Shown piece by piece: positions 11,265 through 46,325 of a stretch of 64,000 nucleotides of DNA. This DNA is from Salinibacter sp. 10B (GTDB lineage Bacteria > Bacteroidota > Rhodothermia > Rhodothermales > Salinibacteraceae): the NCBI RefSeq assembly GCF_002954405.1, contig NZ_MQWC01000004.1:4076790-4140789 (forward strand). The letters run 5' to 3'. The notes under the pieces were generated by a model, which saw only the letters and a program-made list of their open reading frames with translations, was not told the DNA's origin and ran no database searches. The stretch's first letter is position 1, and the number at the start of each line of letters is the position of its first letter. Position numbers and translations under genes: made by a program.

Positions 11265-12998
11265 TCACTGCGGGCTCACCTCGGCGGCCCGCTGGAGCGC
11301 GGCGTGAGCATTGACAACGGCCCCCGTACGGGACAACTGCCCGAAGGGAATTTTATCCGATCCTCCGGGTCTTCTTACCTGCACGTCCTTGTAGGACGTA
11401 GCGGTTTCCAGGATAATAGACCGCACCTGGGCCGTCGTGAGCTCCGGAAAGTAGGCCATGATAAGTGCCGCTACCCCCGACACCATCGGGGCGGCCATAC
11501 TCGTGCCCGAATTGCGCTCGTACTTGTTTTCTGGCACGGTCGAGTAGATGGCGCGACCCGGCGCGAACACATCCACCGTCTCGTCTCCATAGTTGCTGAA
11601 AGGGGCAGCCAGGTCCGACTCGCCCTTCCACGAAGAGGCGCCAACCTCGATCCAGTGTTGCGCCTGTCCGCCCCCCAGGTAGTTTCGCGTCGGGTAGTTT
11701 TCGGTCGTGTCCACGTCGGCCCCGTCATTGCCCGCTGCGTGTACCATAAGCACGTCCATCGAGTCAGCGAACTGCACGGCAGCATCCACAACCTCTTTGG
11801 AGGGGGAATATCCTTTTCCAAAGCTCATGTTGATGACGTCCGCGCCGTTGTTGGCGGCGTAGCGAATGGCGTTGGCGACATCCTTATCGCGCTCATCGCC
11901 ATTTGGCACGGTGCGGACGGACATGATACGCACAGCGGTGGCGATGCCGTTGATGCCGACGTCGTTGTTTCTGGCAGCAGCCACGATGCCGCCCACGTGC
12001 GTGCCATGGTTGGCATCGGGGCCGGTCACGTCGTTGTTGCCGTAGTACCGCTCCGTCTTGTCGGCGTAATCGTCACCCACGATGGAGCGCGGATTGAAGT
12101 CGGGGTTGTAGTTGTATTCCACCCGCCGCTTCAGGGCATCGTAGTACTCATAGATGTCTTCCGGCCCGAGATTCTGGTTGTAAAAGTACTGGAGGATCTC
12201 CCGGGCGCGAGACACCTTCTGCTCGGAGGTTGAGATGGTGTCGACGGCGGCCTGCGAGAGCGAGTCGGTCCCGAGGTACTCGGTGAGGATCTTTTCTGAG
12301 AACTGTACGGCATCCCGGGCCTTGCGGACGTTGGCGAGTTCCTGTTTTGCCTGCTGTCGTTTCTTCTGGAACTTTGCTTTGAGGGTCTGGAAGCGCTGAT
12401 ATGCATCGCGCTGGCCGGAGGGCACCTCTGCCGAGTCTACATCGGCAAAACGCTCCCGAAACTTGACGTAGAGCCGCGTCAACTCGTAGGTGTCTTGGTT
12501 GACATTTTTGCCGTTGGGGCCGCCGATGAAATTCCATCCGTTCACGTCGTCGACGTACCCATTGCCGTCATCGTCTTCGTTGTTGCCGGGCACCTCGTCG
12601 TCGTTCGTCCAGGTGGTCACACTCAGGTCCTCGTGCTCCACGTCGACGCCGGAGTCGATGATGGCAACCACGACAGTGTCTTGCGGGGAGCGGTTCTTCA
12701 GCACCGTCTCGTAGGCCGTGCGGGTGGCGAGGCCTGGAATGCGCGCCGATGCGCCATCGAGGTGAAACCAGTCTTGCGGGGCTTTCGAAGGAAGGGCCGT
12801 CTCCCGGGCGGACGTGTCGGATGCTGCCGATTGAGAGGCCGATGTGTTCGTTTCGGACTGGGGCGACTCGGATTGGGAAGGCGATTCCGTTTGGGGGGAG
12901 GAGGACGTTGTGGGCTGGCTGGAGGTGCACCCGGCCAGCAAGAGGGCACACGCAAGCGCGGCAATCGTGGGGAAGAAAACCGTGGGGCGGTACGTCAT
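11265..12998 (-). CDS. Subtilisin-like (S8) serine protease lipoprotein
   Basis: The 577-residue protein starts at 12998 with a signal peptide and lipobox LLLAGC, then a ~45-residue Ser/Gln/Thr-rich linker. The catalytic triad is visible: Asp in VVAIIDSGVDVEHED, His in NHGTHVGGIVAA, and Ser in NSGTSMAAPMVSGVAA. Between Asp and His there is an unusually long, charged, helix-rich insert of about 150 residues (LTRLYVKFRERF through ILQYFYNQN). Most subtilases have a much shorter segment there. It should act at the cell envelope as a general or maturation protease. The upstream frame to 13031 adds 11 residues and is less likely. Confidence 0.9.
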   Translation of the reverse strand: MTYRPTVFFPTIAALACALLLAGCTSSQPTTSSSPQTESPSQSESPQSETNTSASQSAASDTSARETALPSKAPQDWFHLDGASARIPGLATRTAYETVLKNRSPQDTVVVAIIDSGVDVEHEDLSVTTWTNDDEVPGNNEDDDGNGYVDDVNGWNFIGGPNGKNVNQDTYELTRLYVKFRERFADVDSAEVPSGQRDAYQRFQTLKAKFQKKRQQAKQELANVRKARDAVQFSEKILTEYLGTDSLSQAAVDTISTSEQKVSRAREILQYFYNQNLGPEDIYEYYDALKRRVEYNYNPDFNPRSIVGDDYADKTERYYGNNDVTGPDANHGTHVGGIVAAARNNDVGINGIATAVRIMSVRTVPNGDERDKDVANAIRYAANNGADVINMSFGKGYSPSKEVVDAAVQFADSMDVLMVHAAGNDGADVDTTENYPTRNYLGGGQAQHWIEVGASSWKGESDLAAPFSNYGDETVDVFAPGRAIYSTVPENKYERNSGTSMAAPMVSGVAALIMAYFPELTTAQVRSIILETATSYKDVQVRRPGGSDKIPFGQLSRTGAVVNAHAALQRAAEVSPQ

Positions 12999-13095
12999 GA
13001 ACAGAGGGGGGGACGATCGAGGGAAAAACACGAATCGGATCCCGAGCCGTCACCGGATCGGGGGGCGCCCAACGCAGTCGCGGTCGGGGCGGGGG

Positions 13096-13683
13096 CTATG
13101 CAAGCACCGGTCCCTGCAGGGTGCCCTTGAGCTCGGGAGGGAGTCCAAAGTGCTCGTCCCGGAAGCCCCCAAGCTCGTCTAACGTCTCATTCGAAAGGCG
13201 CTGCACGAGCTCATCGACTGCCGGCCCCCCAATCATGAGAGGAAGGTGCGTGAGCAGCATCTCGGTGCCCCGGCAATGGGCAAGAATCTGATATTCGCAC
13301 AACTCTGCCTTCGGGGTGTCGTGGACGATGCAGTGTTGCGTCCAGCGTGTGGGGTCGAGGGAGTCCTGGTCGAGCAGCGAAGCAGTGCGCCTGGGAAGGT
13401 CGACGTGCTCGTTGAGGTAGGCCGTGCAGCGCTGCCTCGACTGTGCCGAAAACGACTGGCTCAGCGAGGCGTGGCAGCGAAGGCAGAGAGCATACCCAAA
13501 GACCGTTTCTTCCACGTCGTACGCCTCAAATGACCGATATCCCTTTTCGATGACGTACTCCGTCCCGTCCTGGTGGAGCGGACGGTCGCAGGCGAGGCAC
13601 GTCTCGAATGGCGCCTCTGTGTCCTCGGCGTAGAACGAGGGAGGAATGGGAACCCGTTGGGGAAGCACAGGGAGGAAAGACAC
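13096..13683 (-). CDS. Conserved-looking hypothetical protein with two CxxC pairs
   Basis: I do not recognise a named family. The 195-residue protein has CLACDRP near residue 29 and CLRCHAS near residue 67, which together could hold a structural zinc. Aromatic and acidic residues around them (EYVIEKGYRSFEAYDVEETVFGYALC) suggest a folded N-terminal domain. The C-terminal half is helical and contains LLTHLPLMIGGPAVDELVQRLSNETLDELGGF. No signal peptide or membrane segment is seen, so it is probably cytoplasmic. Confidence 0.65.
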   Translation of the reverse strand: MSFLPVLPQRVPIPPSFYAEDTEAPFETCLACDRPLHQDGTEYVIEKGYRSFEAYDVEETVFGYALCLRCHASLSQSFSAQSRQRCTAYLNEHVDLPRRTASLLDQDSLDPTRWTQHCIVHDTPKAELCEYQILAHCRGTEMLLTHLPLMIGGPAVDELVQRLSNETLDELGGFRDEHFGLPPELKGTLQGPVLA

Positions 13684-37117: not shown

Positions 37118-38212
37118 ATGAACTCCATTCTCCAGGTGGACGCGTTGACGAAGCGTTTTGGCCCCGACATGCCTCCGGTGGTCGATCGGGTCAGCTTCGA
37201 CGTAGAGGACGGGGAAATCTTTGCCCTCCTGGGGCCGAGTGGCTGTGGCAAGACCACGACGCTTCGGTGCATTGCCGGGGTGGAGCGGCTCACGCAGGGC
37301 ACCATTCGAATGCGCGATCGAGTGCTTGATGGAGACGGTGCGCACGTTCCTCCCGAGAAGCGGGGGATCGGGCTCGTATTCCAGAATTATGCACTGTTTC
37401 CGCACCTCACGGTGCTCGAAAACGTGTTTTTCGGTCTGCGGGACGGCTCCGAGGCGGAGCGGGCGGAACGGGCGCGTGAGGCACTGGAGATGGTAGACCT
37501 CAAGGGGTTTGAGGATCGGCGTCCGCAAAACCTCTCGGGCGGACAGCAGCAACGGGTGGCTCTTGCTCGGACCCTTGCTCCCGAGCCAGATCTCATCCTA
37601 TTAGACGAGCCGTTTTCCAACCTTGACGCGCTGCTTCGGGAAGAGACCCGGCAGGAGGTGCGGCATTTGCTCAAAGACAAGGGCATTAGCGCCGTCCTCG
37701 TCACACACGACCAGGAAGAGGCACTGTCGTTTGCCGATCGGTTGGCCGTCATGCGGAGTGGGCAGCTCGATCAGGTCGGCACGCCTGAAGACGTGTACTA
37801 CCGACCCCGCACGCTCTTCGTGGCGCAGTTTCTGGGCCGAACCAATCTGCTTTTGTCTCAGGCCTCTGGCAGTGAGGCCGACACCCCCCTCGGCCGCGTG
37901 CGCCTTGACCGAGACGCCGACGGCACAGTTCTCGTCTCCTTGCGTCCAGAGCACCTCACGATTGCCGCGCCAGAGACCGCCGAAGGGCCCATCGGCACCA
38001 TTGTCGATCGGGCCTTCAAGGGACACGACATTACATATCGCGTGTCCTGTGATGGCAATGAGTACCTCGTTCATACCAACAACCGAGAGTTGTATGAAGC
38101 GGGGGACACGGTGGGCCTACAGCCGCTGGAGCCCGCCGTGGTGCTGGAGCGGCAGTCTACCCCCGCCGACGTGCCCACTGGTGTGACGCCCGAACCGTCC
38201 GAGTCGGCGTAG
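37118..38212 (+). CDS. Fe(III) ABC transporter ATP-binding protein
   Basis: The 364-residue ATPase starts MNSILQVDALTKRFG at 37118. Walker A is GPSGCGKTTT, the Q-loop is VFQNYALFPHL, the signature is LSGGQQQRVALARTL, Walker B is LILLDEPFSNLD, and the H-loop is VLVTHDQEEA. A C-terminal TOBE-like regulatory domain follows (FLGRTNLL through PLEPAVVL). The frame is open to an ATG at 36962 that overlaps the permease stop codon, so a 416-residue form coupled to the permease is possible, but its first 52 residues look non-conserved. Confidence 0.92.
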   Translation: MNSILQVDALTKRFGPDMPPVVDRVSFDVEDGEIFALLGPSGCGKTTTLRCIAGVERLTQGTIRMRDRVLDGDGAHVPPEKRGIGLVFQNYALFPHLTVLENVFFGLRDGSEAERAERAREALEMVDLKGFEDRRPQNLSGGQQQRVALARTLAPEPDLILLDEPFSNLDALLREETRQEVRHLLKDKGISAVLVTHDQEEALSFADRLAVMRSGQLDQVGTPEDVYYRPRTLFVAQFLGRTNLLLSQASGSEADTPLGRVRLDRDADGTVLVSLRPEHLTIAAPETAEGPIGTIVDRAFKGHDITYRVSCDGNEYLVHTNNRELYEAGDTVGLQPLEPAVVLERQSTPADVPTGVTPEPSESA

Positions 38213-38595
38213 ACCCTGTTCGTACTGACGACGCTCGCTGGCCTCGCTGTCGGGACGTTTGCGCCGAATGGAGGAAGCGGGCCGAAGAGGCCGAGCCGGG
38301 AGCCGGTCGTGTCTATGGTCGGTTTTCCCGGCAGCATGACCGCGCGTGCACTGAAAGGAGCGCCGGAGACCGATTGGGAAAGGTGAGTCTTACTGGTTGG
38401 GCGTCAGCGGAATACGGAGATACGCGTGAGTATATTTGGGGCGCATATGGAGGGCTCTTGATTGCGCCCTCGGCAGTCCTTAGGTTCCTTTGAAATCAAC
38501 ATCGGAGCCCCCGTCGCATCGTCGCACCGATTCTCGTCTGCGAATCGGGGCTCTACCGGCGTACGCTTCCCTCTGCTCATTTCTGGACACTGCCC
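38213..38595. other. Gene-less stretch upstream of the DUF350 module
   Basis: These 383 bases separate the iron importer from the next operon and should hold its promoter. A short hairpin with 7-bp arms, CCGATTC and GAATCGG, lies near 38530-38552 in the presumed leader. I see no gene or transposon structure. Confidence 0.4.
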
Positions 38596-39462
38596 ATGGA
38601 CGCGCTGAACGTTTCTCTGTTGACCGACGCCGTGCAGGCCCTCCAAAATCCGGCGGCGTTTCTCGTTCTGTTCGTGGCTCTTTTTTTGGTGGGCAAGTGG
38701 CTCAACGATCTGGTAACAGATCATGCTCTGAACAAAGAGTTGACGGAGAAAGATAATCCTGCCCTCGCGATTAGCACAGCGGGCTACTACCTCGGGATCA
38801 TCATTGTTTTTATCGGGGCCGTCATCGGGCCGTCGACGACGCTGCTGTGGGACGTGTTGCTGGTGGGAGGATACGGGCTCGGGGGTATTGTTCTGTTGCT
38901 GTTGTCTCGTGTGATTAACGACCGACTGATTCTTCGGGGCTTCTCGGCACAGCGAGAGCTCATTGAGGATCAAAATCCGGGCACCGGGGCTGTGCTCTTT
39001 GGCAGCTACGTGGCGTCGGCCCTTATCGTGGCGGGGAGTATTCAGGGAGAAGGTGGGGGGCCGCATACGGCACTCGTCTTTTACGCACTCGGGCAGGTGG
39101 CGCTCATCGTCTTTACCTGGCTGTACGACTGGATGGCTCCATACTCGCTTCTCGATCAGATCGAGCAGGACAATACGGCGGCCGGTGTGGGGTTTGGAGG
39201 GGCCCTCATTGCCATCGGCATTATCGTGATGCGGGCCGTGTCGGGCGACTTCCTGGGATGGGCCGCCGACCTGCAGTATCTGGGCTGGAATGTGCTGTTG
39301 GTCTTTGTCTACCTAGTGGTCGTGCGTCTCTTCTTCGACCGGGTTCTCATCCCGAATAGCGATCTCAGTGTGGAGATTACCCGTGATCGCAATGTGGGGG
39401 CGGGCCTGCTGGAGGGCGCTGTCTCGATTGGCTTTGCCGCGGTTCTCTTCTTCGTGCTCTAG
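38596..39462 (+). CDS. DUF350 (YjfL-type) membrane protein, two copies in tandem
   Basis: The 288-residue inner-membrane protein has about eight hydrophobic segments arranged as two similar halves. Each half has the DUF350 pattern: ELTEKDNPALAISTAGYYLGIIIVFIGAVIG in the first, and LDQIEQDNTAAGVGFGGALIAIGIIVMRAV in the second (charged-x-x-DN-x-A followed by a Gly-rich helix). DUF350 function is unknown. In E. coli yjfL sits in a yjfIJKLMC operon with a PspA-like gene and a glutathionylspermidine-synthetase-like gene. Here it opens an operon with DUF4178-like and aminopropyltransferase genes, which is a similar theme. Confidence 0.85.
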   Translation: MDALNVSLLTDAVQALQNPAAFLVLFVALFLVGKWLNDLVTDHALNKELTEKDNPALAISTAGYYLGIIIVFIGAVIGPSTTLLWDVLLVGGYGLGGIVLLLLSRVINDRLILRGFSAQRELIEDQNPGTGAVLFGSYVASALIVAGSIQGEGGGPHTALVFYALGQVALIVFTWLYDWMAPYSLLDQIEQDNTAAGVGFGGALIAIGIIVMRAVSGDFLGWAADLQYLGWNVLLVFVYLVVVRLFFDRVLIPNSDLSVEITRDRNVGAGLLEGAVSIGFAAVLFFVL

Positions 39463-39512
39463 CAGGCCGTTTCGGTCCCGATCTTCACTTCTGACGATCC
39501 TTCACATCAGTC

Positions 39513-40871
39513 ATGGCTGCAGACGACACAGGCGATTCGGAGAGCGCAGGATGTCAGCAGTACGGGTGTGGGTGTGCCGGCGTTGGGGCAGCGCTCGTGG
39601 TGATTGCGATTGCGGTGTCCCTTCCGTCGGCAAGCTCATTCTCGACGCTCGAGGTGTTCTTTGTGCCCGCGTTTCTCCTCATTCCGGGGGCCATCTTGGG
39701 CTTGGTTGCCCGCAAGTTTGTTCCGGAGACCGACATCCGCGACTGGCTCGGCGTCGCAGGAAAGTACATGCTATGGTTTGCCGGCATTTGTTTAATCAGT
39801 GCCATTGGGCTGACGCTGCGGCCCGGGGGATTTTCGTATTACGAGGAGATTCCGGCCGACGGGGGGCTTGTGGGGCCGATTACCATTGAAAAGCAGGACA
39901 TGCGGCTGGGCGTGGAAGTGGAGCAGTACATTGAGGAGGGGGCTGGGAGACGGTATCAGCGCTGGAGCTTCGTAACCATTGAGCTGCTGGACAATAACAA
40001 GGAGTATCTCTCCAGCTTTGGGGGAGAGTTTTGGCACTATGCCGGGTACGACGATGGGTACTGGGAGCAGGATGATACGGAGTACGAAGCGACTCTTGAG
40101 GTGCCGTCGTCTGGGACGTACTACCTCCAGCTCCAAACCGAGGCCAACGTCGACATGTCGGAGCTCTCCTCCATCGGGATCCAGTTGGAGGAGCAGGTCT
40201 GGTGGGGAAATCCAGCCCCCCTGCAGATGGCCGGGTATGTGGCGTTCTTTCTCGGGGTGATTCTCGTCATCCTTCCCACCGACGGGGCGGTCTCGCTGGG
40301 CTTTACGGACCTTTCGGGGCAGTTGAAAGAGGGAACGGAGTTCGACTACCGGGGGCACACCTGGACGGTGCGAGGACATGCCTACTACGATTATGGGGAG
40401 TGGCTGGCAGAGGAATGGACGGTCCAGTCGTCGGATGTGTCGGTGAAACGGCCCCGCTATCTCGAACGTGAATACGAAGCGGGCAGCGACTGGGAGGCGT
40501 GGTTCTGGTCGACCCCGATCGACATGGACACCCTCCGCTGCACCGATGCACAGGAGTCCGAAGTGCCCGTGGCCGACGTCATGACGGCGGAGGACGACGT
40601 CCCGGATCAGATTCAGTACGAAGACGCTGATTTCCGCCTCGACGATTCCGGGACGACCCAACGGGACGGTCGCTCCATTCGGTATCACACGTACAAGGAA
40701 CGATGGGAGTCCGGCAGCCGGTCCATTACCATTGAGGGCGACCCGTCGGACGAGTGTAGTGCAGTGGTAACGGAGGAGATTAGCAGCAGTCAGATTGCGG
40801 TGAAGACGGAGGAGCGTGCCGCCGAGCCTGAATGGGAGGCTGGAGGGGGCGACCTTGGAGGGGAGTTTTAG
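39513..40871 (+). CDS. Membrane-anchored DUF4178-like protein
   Basis: The 452-residue protein has a Cys-rich N-terminus (CQQYGCGCAG), two or three N-terminal membrane segments, a periplasm-like beta domain (about 115-230), another membrane segment near 235-255 (GYVAFFLGVILVIL), and a soluble C-terminal domain. That last domain (TEFDYRGHTWTVRGHAYYDYGEWLAEEWTVQS and later TTQRDGRSIRYHTYKERW) aligns in layout with the 183-residue protein at 42867 and with DUF4178. It starts 50 bases after the DUF350 gene. Function is unknown; the two DUF4178-like domains are probably paralogues. Confidence 0.75.
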   Translation: MAADDTGDSESAGCQQYGCGCAGVGAALVVIAIAVSLPSASSFSTLEVFFVPAFLLIPGAILGLVARKFVPETDIRDWLGVAGKYMLWFAGICLISAIGLTLRPGGFSYYEEIPADGGLVGPITIEKQDMRLGVEVEQYIEEGAGRRYQRWSFVTIELLDNNKEYLSSFGGEFWHYAGYDDGYWEQDDTEYEATLEVPSSGTYYLQLQTEANVDMSELSSIGIQLEEQVWWGNPAPLQMAGYVAFFLGVILVILPTDGAVSLGFTDLSGQLKEGTEFDYRGHTWTVRGHAYYDYGEWLAEEWTVQSSDVSVKRPRYLEREYEAGSDWEAWFWSTPIDMDTLRCTDAQESEVPVADVMTAEDDVPDQIQYEDADFRLDDSGTTQRDGRSIRYHTYKERWESGSRSITIEGDPSDECSAVVTEEISSSQIAVKTEERAAEPEWEAGGGDLGGEF

Positions 40872-40938
40872 AGAGGGGCGTCGGGGGGGGCAGGGGGACC
40901 GATGTTTTTCTGCACTTGGATAGACCATTTCCATCGGT

Positions 40939-41175
40939 ATGAGTGAACGTGTTGTGCGAATTGCAGTGGCCGTGGTCCTGGGCGGATTGTATGTCGGGTT
41001 GCTGGGCTACAGCGTGATGGGCGCCCGCCAGCCGGCGACGGAGGCGGAGCAGCAGACCCGGCGAGGGACGGTGCCCCCGCGGGTGATGTATCACGATGAC
41101 GATGTGGACGTGTACTCGCGTCGGAGTGTGCGCTCCAGCGGGCAGCGCGGTGGGGGGCTGCGGGGCGGAAAGTAG
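40939..41175 (+). CDS. Small single-pass membrane protein
   Basis: I do not recognise this 78-residue protein. Residues 7-27 (RIAVAVVLGGLYVGLLGYSVM) form one membrane helix. The rest is polar and basic, ending in RSSGQRGGGLRGGK, with a short acidic HDDDVDV patch. It is third in the DUF350 module, 67 bases after the previous gene and 83 before the aminopropyltransferase. Its position argues for a part in that module. Confidence 0.65.
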   Translation: MSERVVRIAVAVVLGGLYVGLLGYSVMGARQPATEAEQQTRRGTVPPRVMYHDDDVDVYSRRSVRSSGQRGGGLRGGK

Positions 41176-41258
41176 GGGGCGTCGTGCATTCTGTGTTGGC
41201 GCTGGAAGGGAGGCGGCAGTGGGGACCTCGAAGGAGTCATTTCTAAAGGTGTGATGGG

Positions 41259-42785
41259 ATGCGACGGGTGTTGAGCAACAAGAATGTGGTGATCTTCTCG
41301 GTCTTTGTGGCCGGGCTGTGCTCCCTCGTCTACGAACTTCTAATCAGTACCACGGCGTCGTACTTTCTGGGGGACAGTGTCCAGCAGTTTTCGATCACCA
41401 TTGGGCTGTACCTCGCGTCAATGGGGCTGGGGTCGTACATCTCCCGGTTCATCAAGACGAAACTGCTTCGCTCGTTCGTCGTCGTCGAAATCCTGCTCGG
41501 GCTGATTGGCGGGCTGGCCGTGCCGCTCTTGTACCTTGCCTATGCGTACGGCACGGTGTTTTGGCCCGTGGTGGTGGGCCTCATCATGGTGATTGGGGCG
41601 CTCACGGGACTGGAAATTCCACTTCTGACCCGCATCATGGACGGAGAGGAGTCGCTGGACGTCAATCTGGCGAACATCCTCTCGTTCGACTATTTGGGGG
41701 CGCTGCTCGCCACGCTTGCGTTTCCGTTCGTGCTGCTGCCGGTGCTCGGGACCTTTCGGGCATCGCTCACGCTCGGCCTGTTCAATCTCGTGGTGGGCCT
41801 CGTGAACCTCTGGTGGTTTGCCGACCGACTGGAGCGCCGCTCGCAGTGGCAGGGGTACGCCTTGTCGGCGGGGACTGCGGTGCTGCTGGGCGGACTACTG
41901 GCTGCGTCTGGTCCCATTATGGACCGGTGGAGCAACGATGTGTATGAGGACCGGGTGGTGTACCGCGAGCAGACGCCGTATCAGAAAATCGTGATGACGC
42001 GGTGGCAGGAGGACCTGCGCCTCTTCCTCAACGGCAACCTGCAGTTTTCGTCGCTCGACGAGCCCCGCTACCACGAGCCGCTCGTTCATGTGCCGATGGC
42101 CCAGGTGCAGGCGCCACGGCGGGTCCTGATTCTCGGTGGGGGCGATGGGCTGGCCGCCCGGGAGGTCCTGAAGTATGAGAGCGTCGAGGAGGTTGTGATC
42201 GTCGACCTCGACCCCAAGATGTTCGAGATCGCGCGGACGCACACGGCCCTCACGCGCCTCAACGATCGCAGCCTTCACAGCCCGCGGGTGCGGACCGTGG
42301 CACAGGACGCGTTCGTGTTCCTGGAGGAGACGGACCGGCGCTTTGACGTCATCCTGGCCGACCTGCCGGACCCCAACAACGTCTCTCTCGCACGCCTCTA
42401 CAGCCGCACATTCTACGGCCTTGTCCGTACCCATCTGACTGGGCAGGGCGTTTTCGTCGCGCAGTCCACGAGTCCGTACTTTGCCCGGGAGGCGTTCTGG
42501 ACGATCCACGAGACCATCGGGGCGGCGGACTTCCCGCACACCTATCCGTTTCACGTCAATGTGCCGTCGTTTGGGGAGTGGGGATTCGTTCTAGCGGCCG
42601 AGCGTCCGCTGGACCCGGATGCCGCGGGGCCGTCGGTGGACACCCGGTACCTAAACGCGGCCATCCTGCCCGGGCTCTTTCACTTTCCGAAGGACCTGCG
42701 CCCCGACACCGATCACCAGCCGTCGACGCTCGATCGTCCCCGTGTGCTGGACGCCTACCTCGACGGCTGGCGGTACTGGAACTGA
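41259..42785 (+). CDS. Membrane-anchored spermidine-synthase-like aminopropyltransferase
   Basis: The 508-residue protein has about seven N-terminal membrane helices (residues 8-210). A soluble spermidine-synthase domain follows: YREQTPYQKIVMTRW, then LRLFLNGNLQFSSLDEPRYHEPLVHVPM, RRVLILGGGDGLAAREVLKY (SAM-binding GGGDG), VVIVDLDPKMFEIARTH, and FDVILADLPDPNNVSLARLYS. The aminopropyl-transfer residues of SpeE are largely kept, so it may use decarboxylated SAM to extend a polyamine or another amine at the membrane. AAGGTG lies about 10 bases before the ATG, one of the few Shine-Dalgarno-like sites seen here. Confidence 0.85.
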   Translation: MRRVLSNKNVVIFSVFVAGLCSLVYELLISTTASYFLGDSVQQFSITIGLYLASMGLGSYISRFIKTKLLRSFVVVEILLGLIGGLAVPLLYLAYAYGTVFWPVVVGLIMVIGALTGLEIPLLTRIMDGEESLDVNLANILSFDYLGALLATLAFPFVLLPVLGTFRASLTLGLFNLVVGLVNLWWFADRLERRSQWQGYALSAGTAVLLGGLLAASGPIMDRWSNDVYEDRVVYREQTPYQKIVMTRWQEDLRLFLNGNLQFSSLDEPRYHEPLVHVPMAQVQAPRRVLILGGGDGLAAREVLKYESVEEVVIVDLDPKMFEIARTHTALTRLNDRSLHSPRVRTVAQDAFVFLEETDRRFDVILADLPDPNNVSLARLYSRTFYGLVRTHLTGQGVFVAQSTSPYFAREAFWTIHETIGAADFPHTYPFHVNVPSFGEWGFVLAAERPLDPDAAGPSVDTRYLNAAILPGLFHFPKDLRPDTDHQPSTLDRPRVLDAYLDGWRYWN

Positions 42786-42866
42786 AGGGCCGGTGCCGGA
42801 GGATCTGCCTCTGGTGGCGGTTCGTTACACACATCGATCTCCTACTTCACACATCCACGCAACCCC

Positions 42867-43418
42867 ATGGGCTTTTTCGATTCACTCTTCGGCGGCAGTG
42901 CAGACGAGGACACGTCCTCGGAGGACCCCATTGAGGATCCCTCGCTCGACCAGCTGCGTGAGGGCTATATGCTCGACTACGAGATGCGCACGTGGGAGGT
43001 GACCAAGCACGCCAAGTACGACTACGAGGGCTGGCCCGCCGACGAATGGACGCTGGAGACCGGGGACGATCTGATGTTTTTGGAGTACGAGTACGACGAC
43101 GGCGATGTCTTTCTCCTGTCCGAGCCCGTGGAGATTACGGCGGTAACGGCCGATGGGGAGCCGTTCCGGGCCGTGGTGCGCGAGCAGGAACCGCCCACGA
43201 CAGTAACGTACGATGGACAAGAGTACGTTCTCTCCGAGGAGGGACCGGCCACGCGCACGGTGGATGACCGGACGAATGAGCTACACTACTGGGTGTACGA
43301 CGGGGAGGAGGGCTTCGTGGCACTCGAACGCTACGGGTCCAGTGACTGGAACGTGTACGCGGGGCGAGAGGTGGAGCCGTTCGAATTTGACAATATTCTT
43401 CCCCGCGCGGCGTCGTAA
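42867..43418 (+). CDS. DUF4178-like soluble protein
   Basis: The 183-residue protein starts MGFFDSLFGGSADED, a short amphipathic helix that could touch the membrane. The core (GYMLDYEMRTWEVTKHAKYDYEGWPADEWTLETGDDLMFLEYEYDDGDVFLLSEP) is a beta-rich DUF4178-like domain, followed by a second similar half (VTYDGQEYVLSEEGPATRTVDDRTNELHYWVYDGEEGFVALERYG). It is very acidic. It closes the five-gene module, 81 bases after the aminopropyltransferase. Function is unknown. Confidence 0.78.
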   Translation: MGFFDSLFGGSADEDTSSEDPIEDPSLDQLREGYMLDYEMRTWEVTKHAKYDYEGWPADEWTLETGDDLMFLEYEYDDGDVFLLSEPVEITAVTADGEPFRAVVREQEPPTTVTYDGQEYVLSEEGPATRTVDDRTNELHYWVYDGEEGFVALERYGSSDWNVYAGREVEPFEFDNILPRAAS

Positions 43419-43544
43419 TTTGGGGCGGAGCCCGGAACCTACGTCCGGGCTTCCAATTCGACAGTCGCACTTCTGATGGGCATGCACACCGAGGGCATTC
43501 ATTCCCCGAATGGATCGTCGTTGTGCAAGGCCTTCGACATGCCA

Positions 43545-43630
43545 GCCCGAGTGGCGGAATTGGCAGACGCGACGGATTCAAAATCCGTTGCCCTTCACAG
43601 GGCGTGAGGGTTCAAGTCCCTCCTCGGGCA
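43545..43630 (+). tRNA. tRNA-Leu (anticodon CAA)
   Basis: The acceptor stem GCCCGAG (43545-43551) pairs with CTCGGGC (43623-43629), with discriminator A at 43630. The anticodon arm is ACGGA-TTCAAAA-TCCGT, giving CAA. A long variable arm (TGCCCTTCACAGGGCGT region) marks a class II leucine tRNA. The T loop GGGTTCAAGTCCC is normal. CCA is not encoded. Confidence 0.95.
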
Positions 43631-43650
43631 CTGCTTCTTTCAGCGGTAAT

Positions 43651-43690
43651 CGCCCCTGAGCGGCACTGAAGGCCGGTTCAGGGGCGTTTT
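43651..43690 (+). terminator. Terminator after tRNA-Leu
   Basis: CGCCCCTGA (43651-43659) pairs perfectly with TCAGGGGCG (43678-43686) across an 18-nt loop that can fold further, and TTTTCT follows. Confidence 0.85.
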
Positions 43691-43843
43691 CTATTTCGAC
43701 CGCATCGATGCCGAATTGCACTGAGTTGCATCGAAAAGGAGCTCTGTGGGCAACAGGCGGGAAACGGGGTTCTGGGAATCGCCGCGTCCAGACGCCGACG
43801 GCCGACTGTATATTCGTTTCCGATAGGGGCACCCCGAGGTCCG

Positions 43844-43879
43844 TCACAGGGCGTGAGGGGGCGAGTCTCTCTTCGAGCT
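43844..43879 (+). repeat. Diverged copy of the tRNA-Leu 3' end (att-like)
   Basis: The segment repeats tRNA positions 43595-43630 in the same orientation. The first 16 bases (TCACAGGGCGTGAGGG) are identical and the remaining 20 have 7 mismatches. Duplicated tRNA 3' ends are what tyrosine-recombinase integration leaves behind. The copy lies 214 bases past the tRNA and 35 bases from the sheath gene. No integrase is present. Confidence 0.6.
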
Positions 43880-43914
43880 CCGACAAGCCCCCACGCCCGC
43901 CATCGTCCGAGCGG

Positions 43915-45777
43915 TCAGGAGTCGGCTGGCACGCGAAGCACCATCGCCAGCCGAGCGTTCGCCGAAAGAATCCGATCGGGAGGACGTAGCCGGACGGCCA
44001 GAACCTCTTGGTTGGGAAGATCCACATCGGAGACGTGTTCAACGCGTACGGTGTCCGGTTCCAGCACGTCGTTCATTTCAGCGGCGACCCGCGCCTGTAG
44101 GTCAGTCAGCGGCGCCGTAAGGTCCAATGTGCGTCGCAGCGTGAAGAGGCGGTGCGCGACCCTGGCCAAAAACAAGCGGCACGGAAGGGACGCCTCCGCC
44201 CGGGCTTCCGCGGCGGCGGAGGGATCGTCGTAGACCGTCGGTTCGTGGACTGACGGAGCGTGTGCGATGCGAAGATCACCGTCGTCGGTTTCGTCCAGAA
44301 CGACGAAGCCGGCCCGGGCCAACTCTGACTGCATACTTCCCGAAAACTGGGCCGAGAGCAAAGAGGCGTCGTTGGCAGATCCCCCGCAGCCGAACGTCTG
44401 TTGCGTCAGGTGCGTGGACCATCCGGTTTCTGCGTAGCTTTGGGCCGCGGCCACGCCCACTGCGAGCGCTCCGCTGCCAAACACCCCCTCATTCTCGTCT
44501 ACAGCGATGACGGAATCGGAGGCGCTCTTCGTATGAGGGGGGCGGAGCTGTACAGAGGGAAGCGCAAGGGATAAGAAGGAGCTTGCGTCTTCCGAGCGGA
44601 GCTGGTCCCACTTGATGTACTCGTCTCCCTGCAGGTGCGGGCGAAGAGAGGGCAACTGGGTCAAGCCCCGCAGGTGCTCCAGGCCAAAGAAGTCTGCGCT
44701 CACCGACGCCACCACGGGGGTCTGAAGGCTTTGCCCCGTCCCCGCGAGATCAGCTAGTTGATCGACCTCGACGTGTGAATGCCCGAAGGCGTGGTCGATC
44801 ATCAGCAGGGAGGTGGGCGGCTCGTCGTTTGCTTCATTGTGCTCGGGCTGTAGCACCTGGTGGTGCAGGGCGTCGTGCAGGTCAGCGCGCCTGCAGGGAA
44901 GCACGAGAAGATCGACATTGCCATTCAGGTCAATGTGGGACTCCAGGAAGCGAAGCCCTCGCCACGCAGCCTCCAGTTGCCGAAATTCCGGCACCGTGAG
45001 TACGGCGTGCACCTGCGCCGCGATTGCCGAATCCAGCCGATGGAGAATAGAGTCAGCAGCGTCGCGGATCGGGGCCGGATCCGCAGGAGGAGTCGTCTCC
45101 GGCTCAGGGGTATCGCCGGTATCCACCATGCTCATGACGCGGTCGAGAGCATCCTCCGGTTGTTGCTGCGGGGACGACACTTCGCGCGAATTGCCGTTTG
45201 CCGGTGGCGGTTCCTCATTAAGAAGCCGGTACAACTCGTCGGCCCAGTCGATGCTGAAATCGATCTCATCTAGCTGGTTCCGAAACGCCGTCGGACTCAG
45301 TTCGCCAGTTTTGACCTTCTGGACGAGCGAGCGGACGGACAGCAGGCGAGCCGTCGGTGGCATTTGCTGGGCAATCTGCCGTGGGGAAAACGCCTCCAGG
45401 GTTGGGAAAGAAAGTGAAACCGTCCATTGGTCCGGCTGATCGCTGAGCCGATTGGGAACCTCTACCTGAAGCTCCGGCCCAAGCTCAGCCTGAAGGTCCG
45501 CTACGGTTTTTGGACCGATATGGTGACGGCGGTCCGTTTCCGACCAGTCGGCGGGTGAGCGTTGGGGAGTGAGGTTGCTGACGAAAAGGAGCCGAAACGG
45601 CAGGGGAGAGCTCGACGAGGAGTGCGGATCTTCCCGGGGAGTCGTGACAACCTCCGAATCAATTTGGACGTCAGAGGGAGGATCCGATGCAGGAGCGGTC
45701 CGAGAGGACGAATCGTCAGTCATGTTTTGAGAAATCGCAATAGGGAGAAGAGGAGAGAACGGAGAGGCGCGCTCCAT
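43915..45777 (-). CDS. Type VI secretion-like TssB-TssC sheath fusion protein
   Basis: The 620-residue product joins two sheath proteins. After a disordered start, residues about 55-150 read as TssB: PLPFRLLFVSNLTPQR, LQVEVPNRL, then FPTLEAFSPRQIAQQMPPTARLLSVRSLVQKV. From about 235 the text is TssC: LHRLDSAIAAQVHAVLTVPEFRQLEAAWRGLRFLESHID, LLMIDHAFGHSH, WDQLRSEDASSFLSLALPSVQLR, and an EVFGSGALAVG-like segment with a C-terminal ARVAHRLFTLRRTLDLTAPL. TssB and TssC are normally separate proteins that form a contractile tube. Its ATG (45777) overlaps the stop of the upstream gene (TGATG), so the two are coupled; ATG 45723 is an alternative start. No other T6SS gene is nearby. Confidence 0.75.
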   Translation of the reverse strand: MERASPFSPLLPIAISQNMTDDSSSRTAPASDPPSDVQIDSEVVTTPREDPHSSSSSPLPFRLLFVSNLTPQRSPADWSETDRRHHIGPKTVADLQAELGPELQVEVPNRLSDQPDQWTVSLSFPTLEAFSPRQIAQQMPPTARLLSVRSLVQKVKTGELSPTAFRNQLDEIDFSIDWADELYRLLNEEPPPANGNSREVSSPQQQPEDALDRVMSMVDTGDTPEPETTPPADPAPIRDAADSILHRLDSAIAAQVHAVLTVPEFRQLEAAWRGLRFLESHIDLNGNVDLLVLPCRRADLHDALHHQVLQPEHNEANDEPPTSLLMIDHAFGHSHVEVDQLADLAGTGQSLQTPVVASVSADFFGLEHLRGLTQLPSLRPHLQGDEYIKWDQLRSEDASSFLSLALPSVQLRPPHTKSASDSVIAVDENEGVFGSGALAVGVAAAQSYAETGWSTHLTQQTFGCGGSANDASLLSAQFSGSMQSELARAGFVVLDETDDGDLRIAHAPSVHEPTVYDDPSAAAEARAEASLPCRLFLARVAHRLFTLRRTLDLTAPLTDLQARVAAEMNDVLEPDTVRVEHVSDVDLPNQEVLAVRLRPPDRILSANARLAMVLRVPADS

Positions 45778-46325
45778 CACGCTTCGTCTTCAGGGGCAAC
45801 AGGGCGGAAGGTTCGCATCATTCGTTCGATCTTGGGACCAAGCGTCTTCCGCGTTTTGGGCGTACAACCGGCGATCAGCACGTATCCGGTGGTTTTATGA
45901 AGGACGTACATGTGCTCCTGGTAGAGCGTCCGATGAGCGTCGGGGTGCCAACGGTAGATCAGTCGGTGGGCAGGGTGCCCACAGTCAAGTGAGATGGGGT
46001 CGTCGATAAGGATACGACACCCGTCGAGCTGTTCAGTCAGACGCCCCCGCTCGTGCTGGGCCAATGCAGATGCGTCTGACGCTTCGACGTCGGGGATTGT
46101 CGTAATAGAAAGTCGATGCGTCAGTCCATCGTGCGTAGGCCCTGTGAGCATGTGAGTGGACCGATCGGTCCACCCGTCGTGCGGAAGCGTACAGTGAAAC
46201 GCATCTGCGTAGTACGGGCAAGGCTCGGCCGTCAACGATGCTGTCGGTGCGTTTCGCTGATTGTCGGGGTGTTGGTCAGTCGACGAGGCGAGATTTTGAT
46301 AGTACTCGGGAAGATCGTTGCTCAC
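45777..46325 (-). CDS. DUF1795/EagR-like protein, first copy
   Basis: The 182-residue protein starts at GTG 46325. After a ~35-residue polar lead, the domain reads YYADAFHCTLPHDGWTDRSTHMLTGPTHDGLTHRLSITTIPD, then LAQHERGRLTEQLDGCRILID, HPAHRLIYRWHPDAHRTLYQEHMYVLHKTTGYVLIAGCTP. That order matches DUF1795 (DcrB/EagR) proteins. EagR members are chaperone/adaptors that load membrane-helix-bearing effectors onto T6SS spikes. It is coupled to the sheath fusion downstream. The family call is from pattern recall, so it is moderate. Confidence 0.6.
   Translation of the reverse strand: MSNDLPEYYQNLASSTDQHPDNQRNAPTASLTAEPCPYYADAFHCTLPHDGWTDRSTHMLTGPTHDGLTHRLSITTIPDVEASDASALAQHERGRLTEQLDGCRILIDDPISLDCGHPAHRLIYRWHPDAHRTLYQEHMYVLHKTTGYVLIAGCTPKTRKTLGPKIERMMRTFRPVAPEDEA

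Follow-up and report, generated by a model that had tools for sequence, protein, structure and literature searches.

A Membrane-Bound Aminopropyltransferase Module in Salinibacter sp. 10B and the Conserved C-Terminal Lysine Tail of Its Small Membrane Protein

The window, a stretch of 64,000 nucleotides from the genome of Salinibacter sp. 10B, carries a five-gene membrane module in which the fourth gene joins membrane helices to an aminopropyltransferase. The first gene (38596..39462) encodes a DUF350 integral membrane protein of 288 amino acids with two DUF350 units in tandem (Pfam E 5e-55). It is followed by a gene (39513..40871) for a 452-residue protein that has hydrophobic helices in its N-terminal part and DUF4178 (Pfam 8e-9) in its C-terminal part, and then by a gene (40939..41175) for a one-helix membrane peptide of 78 amino acids, predicted to lie with its N-terminus inside and its C-terminus outside (N-in/C-out) and ending in QRGGGLRGGK before the stop codon. 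The fourth gene (41259..42785) encodes the 508-residue fusion of seven transmembrane helices (7TM) and an aminopropyltransferase (Pfam Spermine_synth at residues 269-447, 2e-39). Its membrane domain (residues 1-215; 41259..41903) consists of a six-helix half like those of major facilitator superfamily (MFS) transporters (residues 1-192) plus a seventh helix, TM7, and its aminopropyltransferase domain (residues 231-508; 41949..42782) is predicted to be extracytoplasmic. The fifth gene (42867..43418) encodes a 183-residue DUF4178 protein (Pfam 7e-16) in which no hydrophobic helix was noted. All five genes are on the + strand with gaps of 50, 67, 83, and 81 bases, and the DUF4178 matches of genes 2 and 5 both pass the Pfam cut-off. 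The initial annotation had described this same co-directional set, with gaps of 50-83 bases, and the open reading frames (ORFs) lie where it placed them; Pfam and helix prediction also agree with its naming of a DUF350 gene, two DUF4178 genes, a 78-residue membrane peptide, and a seven-helix Spermine_synth enzyme. The subject of this report is the last residue of the peptide, a lysine encoded by the AAG codon at 41170..41172, which is proposed as the aminopropyl acceptor of the enzyme.

The 78-residue ORF very probably represents a genuine gene. In the nearest relative locus, L061, whose enzyme is 74% identical, an ORF of 78 amino acids also adjoins the enzyme and ends in RGGGIRGGK, and this relative rules out a spurious ORF. 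Between the two peptides, good alignment is confined to the helix region and the RGGG[LI]RGGK end. No Pfam family was found for the window peptide; a match to CbtB at E 0.18 falls below the cut-off and is not believed. The 452-residue protein of gene 2 is not the tail carrier in the window because it ends in GGEF.

The main evidence on the lysine comes from relatives of the fusion enzyme. Full-length relatives, defined by an E of 1e-100 or less, occur in 22 of the 296 genomes of the phylum sample (the window's own genome counted). A total of 105 fusion-enzyme loci was compared: the window, 21 phylum loci, three plasmid loci, and 80 genome_contigs loci, which are the best 80 of at least 582 relatives (at least 587 pattern matches). 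When the neighbors were read at the 21 phylum loci, the protein beside the enzyme ended in lysine in most of them, whatever its architecture, the exceptions being L039 and L040. These tail carriers are of three types. The first are short one-helix peptides, such as that of the window (GGGLRGGK) and others ending in FGGK, GYRGGK, FYHK, or RYYHK. The second are lipoproteins of 240-254 amino acids that end in GGFGK or similar. In the third type, seen at nine loci, the tail is on the labelled DUF4178 protein itself (e.g., GGGTSFGK), and no separate carrier was found at these nine.

Across the 105 loci, a [GH]K end is carried by 72 of the 1240 hydrophobic ORFs of at least 30 amino acids on the strand of the enzyme versus 3 of 1236 on the opposite strand; counted by locus, this is 72 of 105 versus 2 of 105. 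DUF350 or DUF4178 is visible at 79 of the loci, and there the tail is [GH]K in 75, VK in two, and missing in two. The other proteins of the module do not have a [GH]K end (0/105 for the aminopropyltransferase, 0/79 for DUF350, 0/59 for SpeD). When small upstream transmembrane ORFs were selected without regard to their C-terminus, 32 of 44 ended in lysine versus 1 of 16 and 1 of 28 in the controls; this filter is strict, and just 35 of the 105 loci yielded a candidate while 70 yielded none. The lysine codon over the 72 tail loci is AAA in 50 and AAG in 22, followed by TAA (47), TGA (16), or TAG (9), and these mixed codons and stops rule out an artefact of a single codon or stop. The loci with the tail span about 13 phyla by a reading of record titles. 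The 45 short carriers have a mean identity of about 20% outside the last three aligned residues, and a lysine kept across carriers that can hardly be aligned is a concrete acceptor candidate, with an expected gain of 57.06 Da on the last residue.

Plasmids offered a further sample. A tblastn search with the window enzyme matched 60 plasmid records, and one with the enzyme of L096 matched at least 40 of 55 records. The tail had been predicted beforehand for six held-out plasmid loci, and it was found on the same strand in four of the six (the ORF of L147 is probably over-extended). In the other two, both from Burkholderia, the tail SYGSHK is on a divergent strand with SpeD, DUF4178, and DUF350. 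Actinobacterial DUF4247 proteins presumably have a similar Gly-rich, GK-like end, and no actinobacterial record is among the tblastn plasmid matches listed. In many short carriers, a loose S-x-R-x-[GN]-[PS] motif also recurs some distance ahead of the terminal lysine and might be another site of recognition.

Some of these counts needed decisions on single loci. The distant L060 (715 amino acids) is outside the 105. L117 was removed from the count of lysine tails, its sole match (333 amino acids, no transmembrane helix found) being doubtful, and L071 is uncounted, its 321-residue ORF being beyond the 3.2-kilobase (kb) limit. The first match in L104 (309 amino acids, no transmembrane helix) is spurious and the second (72 amino acids, GGGYRGGK) is the intended carrier. 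At L059, L113, L137, and L138 there is one more [GH]K ORF in addition to the intended carrier, and the starts of the carriers in L099, L102, and L114, like that of L147, are probably over-extended. The carrier of L143 (536 amino acids) has no transmembrane helix under the cut used for carriers, and four of the 75 [GH]K loci were added by eye, being below the hydropathy cut.

The donor of an aminopropyl group is decarboxylated S-adenosylmethionine (decarboxylated SAM, or dcSAM), and a missing source of it in the genome is ruled out by the presence of SpeD (AdoMet decarboxylase). Salinibacter sp. 10B has a single copy of speD, in a second cluster about 223 kb from the window with the order CesT/Tir-PspA-DUF4178 (with a PspC insert)-DnaJ-SpeD (L008); the SpeD and PspA half of the module is thus outside the window, at G000:C4:3889182-3892193. 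In the DUF4178 protein of that cluster (L008 6660-7364), a PspC domain at residues 115-173 sits inside DUF4178, whose C-terminal part then resumes and resembles gene 5 of the window. Apart from the fusion enzyme, the genome has no Spermine_synth match, and it has no GSP_synth match at all. Three sampled genomes of the same genus have neither the fusion enzyme nor SpeD, and the whole module may thus have been acquired or lost in one piece.

SpeD is present in all 22 fusion-bearing genomes compared to 61 of the 296 overall (Fisher p 2e-17). In 19 of the 22 there is no other Spermine_synth match with an E below 1e-20; a SpeD-SpeE fusion ORF is present in G005 and G087, and one with an internal stop in G066. 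The neighbors therefore do not vary freely, given SpeD in 22/22 genomes and a lysine-tailed protein in 77 of the 79 module loci (75 [GH]K, 2 VK). Band-7, PspA, and CesT genes are neighbors in some loci. In L046, the only locus for which Pfam was run on these ORFs, an amine-oxidase-like flavoprotein (PF01593; 10797-12452) comes after the enzyme and is followed by a 352-residue protein without a Pfam match (12445-13503). ORFs of similar size are at this position in other Bacteroidota loci, and L149 is annotated there with a flavin adenine dinucleotide (FAD)-dependent oxidoreductase. An oxidase beside the enzyme might process the modified tail.

The loci without the usual module bring in a second branch. 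DUF350 and DUF4178 are not visible in 26 of the 105 loci; ten of these have a ligase of one family and 16 have neither ligase nor tail. The ligase of L039 matches Pfam GSP_synth at E 4e-81, and the remaining ones were found by a custom profile at E 1e-165 or less. In 10/10 ligase loci an adjoining protein, found with a query that lacked the tail, ends in Gly-Gly, and in 0/10 is there a lysine carrier. The lipoprotein of L051 and the Gly-Gly protein of L039 have no Pfam family. At phylum GSP_synth loci, hydrophobic ORFs end in GG in 8 of 75 cases on the same strand versus 0 of 64 on the opposite strand, and two of the eight come once more from the L039 and L040 genomes. Partners rich in Gly and Ser, chosen by eye in the phylum, end in GG, GGG, SS, GS, HA, SL, and once TR (L171), and none ends in lysine. 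In L153-L158, Bacteroidota GSP_synth genes adjoin lipoprotein-like ORFs of about 110-150 amino acids, several with GGFGR-type tails that end in Ser or another small residue. The E. coli proteins YgiC and YjfC are peptide--spermidine ligases by RefSeq name, and their partners YgiB and YjfM end in SRSMGG and GHWGG, respectively.

The tail evidence makes the C-terminal lysine the probable aminopropyl acceptor. The initial annotation had suggested that a membrane-associated amine or lipid is modified rather than free spermidine being made. An acceptor other than free putrescine is upheld; the lipid is not, and what was found favors the peptide's C-terminal lysine. It is unlikely that the enzyme acts on the amine of a membrane lipid or of another small molecule, with the tailed peptide serving as a regulator or docking subunit whose unmodified lysine lies near the active site. 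The membrane location and the PspA, CesT, and band-7 neighbors of some loci would suit such a role at the membrane, and conservation of a C-terminus does not by itself prove modification. However, the lysine is kept across carriers of differing architecture, and docking does not predict that Gly-Gly replaces it in the ten ligase loci.

The side of the membrane on which the reaction would take place depends on the topology of the enzyme. Seven N-terminal membrane helices are predicted, and the mean number of Lys plus Arg per loop over the 105 sequences is 2.2/0.3/2.0/0.4/3.0/0.9/2.7/1.6, so that positive loops alternate. Residues 1-192 of the model align with halves of MFS transporters at Z up to 19.6 (residues 1-190 on 8vzo_A: 183 residues, root-mean-square deviation 2.6), and the matches include choline/ethanolamine (FLVCR) and monoamine (VMAT2) carriers. 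Both ends of an MFS half are cytosolic. Since the half starts and ends in the cytosol, TM7 would place the catalytic domain outside, and it is predicted to be on the same side as the lipoprotein tails and the N-in/C-out peptides. The short carriers have 1.49 Lys plus Arg before the helix versus 1.00 after it, the number before being larger in 23 of 45 and smaller in eight. Acidic residues lie within the helices (E26 in 102/105, E77 in 97/105, E119 and D144 in 105/105 each) and might suit the passage of a cation such as dcSAM.

One could consider instead that the enzyme faces the cytosol and aminopropylates the lysine ahead of the tail's passage across the membrane. This would place the reaction where dcSAM is produced; in the sister branch, the GSP_synth ligases show no obvious membrane anchor, and modification before export may therefore be a common rule; and DSSP draws TM5-TM6 of the model as a single helix run. 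Set against this are the alternating positive-inside pattern with seven helices in 105 enzymes, the match of residues 1-192 to an MFS half, and, as a weak sign, fewer cysteines in the fusion catalytic domain than in canonical relatives (0.46 vs 0.98 per 100 amino acids), and together they make modification in the cytosol quite unlikely.

The catalytic domain was modeled at pLDDT 93 and has the fold of polyamine aminopropyltransferases, its best PDB matches being 1uir and 3anx of T. thermophilus (Z 36). The canonical enzymes used for comparison are seven phylum relatives, one of them a SpeD-SpeE fusion. The membrane fusions and the canonical enzymes have 29 residues in common, including Q242, D267-E268, Y271-H272-E273, the GGGxG motif, D318, D368, D371, and P372. 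At another 20 positions, each group keeps a residue of its own. For example, position 438 is Phe in 99 of 105 fusions versus Tyr, which has a role in the acceptor pocket, in 7/7 canonical relatives. An ordinary polyamine synthase that is merely anchored in the membrane, making spermidine or a close relative from putrescine, is very unlikely: the fold, the 29 canonical residues, and its standing as the sole Spermine_synth match in the genome are as expected of such an enzyme, but the canonical Tyr at position 438 is Phe in nearly all fusions, and the seven helices, DUF350, and the conserved tail lysine are left unexplained. In addition, PMC12803844, citing Li et al. 2019, describes relatives, possibly of the same group as the window enzyme, as uninvolved in spermidine synthesis. 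An enzyme making free spermidine without any partner is ruled out by the tail protein found with the enzyme in nearly all module loci.

The mechanism proposed for the C-terminal lysine as acceptor is as follows. SpeD, encoded in the second cluster, makes dcSAM, and this cation would cross the membrane through two MFS halves, which a dimer of the fusion could supply. The extracytoplasmic active site would then transfer the aminopropyl moiety to the amine at the end of the lysine side chain at the peptide's C-terminus. Because the lysine side chain is an aminobutyl group and in this respect putrescine-like, the product would be a tail, anchored in the membrane, whose last side chain resembles spermidine. 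PspA, CesT, and DUF4178 proteins may sense or use this tail at the membrane, and a maintenance role for the system together with PspA and CesT is conceivable. In the ligase variant, GSP_synth would first join an amine to the C-terminal Gly and the same enzyme would then extend that amine. The gene set, the conserved tail, the kept active-site residues, the seven-helix topology as a prediction, and the co-occurrence with SpeD are computational results, and the steps from the membrane passage of dcSAM onward are inferred, with differing firmness. Given the tail lysine as acceptor, a reaction on the outer face is somewhat favored over one inside, and the odds are likewise slightly better than even that the lysine is the acceptor in a tail that is exported, whichever side the modification happens on. 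Transport of dcSAM by the half-MFS domain is a tentative proposal, with chances a little short of even. The full reading, a widespread system of about 13 phyla in which the C-terminal lysine of a small membrane protein is aminopropylated on the outer face by a dimeric half-transporter fusion that carries its own dcSAM, is given a probability of about one in three.

Several observations weigh against the proposed mechanism. A conserved C-terminal lysine could instead be a docking, sorting, or protease signal. The 105 loci are not independent events, and several are close relatives. The carriers of L120 and L142 end in VK, and no tail was found in the 16 loci without DUF350, DUF4178, or ligase (some near contig ends) or in L117 and L125. 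With limited flanks and narrow models, SpeD is seen in 57, PspA in nine, and CesT in five of the 105 loci, so the link to PspA is a feature of a minority of them. Among the residues that set the fusions apart, the canonical Val at position 270 is Arg in 102 of 105, a conservation that is biased because the genome_contigs search pattern permits only R or L there; as a guess, Arg270 could bind the carboxylate of the tail. The fusions differ away from the acceptor side as well (Met to Gln262, Thr to Ala299, Ser to Gly442). With Foldseek, the membrane domain has no match below E 0.001, the top row is a ZIP transporter, and MFS rows begin at E 0.03; given these weak matches and the merged TM5-TM6, the count of seven crossings depends on the charge pattern and on the alignment to MFS halves. 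Catalysis on the outer face is the less certain because dcSAM would be needed outside, and we know of no extracytoplasmic use of it. The ligase branch adds points of its own. A strict Gly-Gly rule is not general, in view of the other ends among the phylum partners; a second, unrelated lipoprotein neighbor of GSP_synth ends in lysine in L153, L154, and L157; and the ligases of the E. coli type have no evident membrane anchor while their partner tails look exported, which leaves a puzzle over the side of the membrane.

A tRNA gene is located directly 3' of the module (43545-43630, + strand), and an Rfam scan of 37500-44500 found this tRNA only. A scan for promoters and terminators gave no clear excess over shuffled sequences. 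On the - strand, a 621-residue ORF (43915-45780) combines T6SS_VipA (residues 55-172) and VipB (243-476), both sheath subunits of the type VI secretion system (T6SS), in one polypeptide according to Pfam, and a gene for a DcrB-domain protein (45777-46325, Pfam) adjoins it.

If lysine aminopropylation on the outer face is true, it would be a new protein modification carried out by the first extracytoplasmic aminopropyltransferase, and it would supply the missing acceptor of the MFS-SpdSyn family. It would also account for SpeD in the 19 of 22 genomes that have no other strong spermidine-synthase match, and the GSP_synth ligase systems would be a chemically parallel solution. DUF350, DUF4178, and a branch of the PspA envelope systems would then share a purpose, the making and handling of polyamine-like protein tails at the membrane.

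The closest known system is the CesT/Tir-PspA operon with a 7TM-spermidine-synthase fusion (group 2 of Ravi et al.). In the parts of the paper seen, Ravi et al. 2024 (mSystems, PMC11237479) describe a 7TM-spermidine-synthase fusion with DUF350, DUF4178, CesT, PspA, and a lipoprotein, and suggest aminopropylation of other substrates, with the acceptor and the catalytic side unnamed. The link between polyamine chemistry and envelope maintenance that the initial annotation drew is supported; both this link and the idea of an acceptor other than free putrescine were already in print, there and reportedly in Li et al. 2019. The word "lysine" is absent from the main text of PMC11237479, and among the matches listed, a C-terminal lysine acceptor is stated in no title or abstract opening; Li et al. 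2019 and Pederick et al. 2023 may hold part of the idea. The gene neighborhood is thus already known, and the C-terminal lysine tail of the 78-residue peptide is what is new here. The window likewise has the 7TM-spermidine synthase fusion with adjoining DUF350 and DUF4178. It differs in that CesT/Tir and PspA are about 223 kb off with SpeD and a third DUF4178, for which reason the module is filed as a split variant, and apparently also in having the 78-residue one-helix peptide without a lipobox in place of the Ctha_1186 lipoprotein. The second cluster of Salinibacter sp. 10B differs as well in the PspC insert of its DUF4178 protein. Taken together, the two loci contain most of the published operon.

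In E. coli, the DUF350 gene yjfL does adjoin spermidine-linked and PspA-like genes, as had been pointed out, in the order yjfI-yjfJ (PspA)-yjfK-yjfL (DUF350)-yjfM-yjfC. The YgiBC and YjfMC pairs, each a DUF1190 protein and a peptide--spermidine ligase, therefore resemble the window module through the DUF350 (YjfL) and PspA (YjfJ) that adjoin yjfMC, and a polyamine-like tail is the outcome proposed in common. They differ in that an ATP-grasp ligase and a Gly terminus take the place of the aminopropyltransferase and Lys terminus of the fusion module.

MFS-SpdSyn fusions found with AdoMet decarboxylase and DUF350 were reportedly described by Li et al. in 2019 (Biochem J; cited in PMC12803844 and PMC11237479), where putrescine is said not to be the acceptor and no acceptor to have been proposed. 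They are presumably the same enzyme family, to which the tail lysine and the predicted catalytic side are added here. In microcin C, MccD puts an aminopropyl group onto a ribosomal peptide, as is proposed for the window enzyme, but it modifies a phosphate. Hypusine in eIF5A is another case of a polyamine-derived group on a lysine, but there the group is aminobutyl, the lysine is internal, and the reaction takes place in the cytosol. Canonical spermidine synthase shares the fold and the 29 residues with the window enzyme, which differs from this soluble enzyme by Phe438 and its seven membrane helices. Finally, the fusion shares the six-helix half fold with MFS transporters and differs in having one half plus TM7 per chain, compared to the two halves (12 helices) of a transporter.

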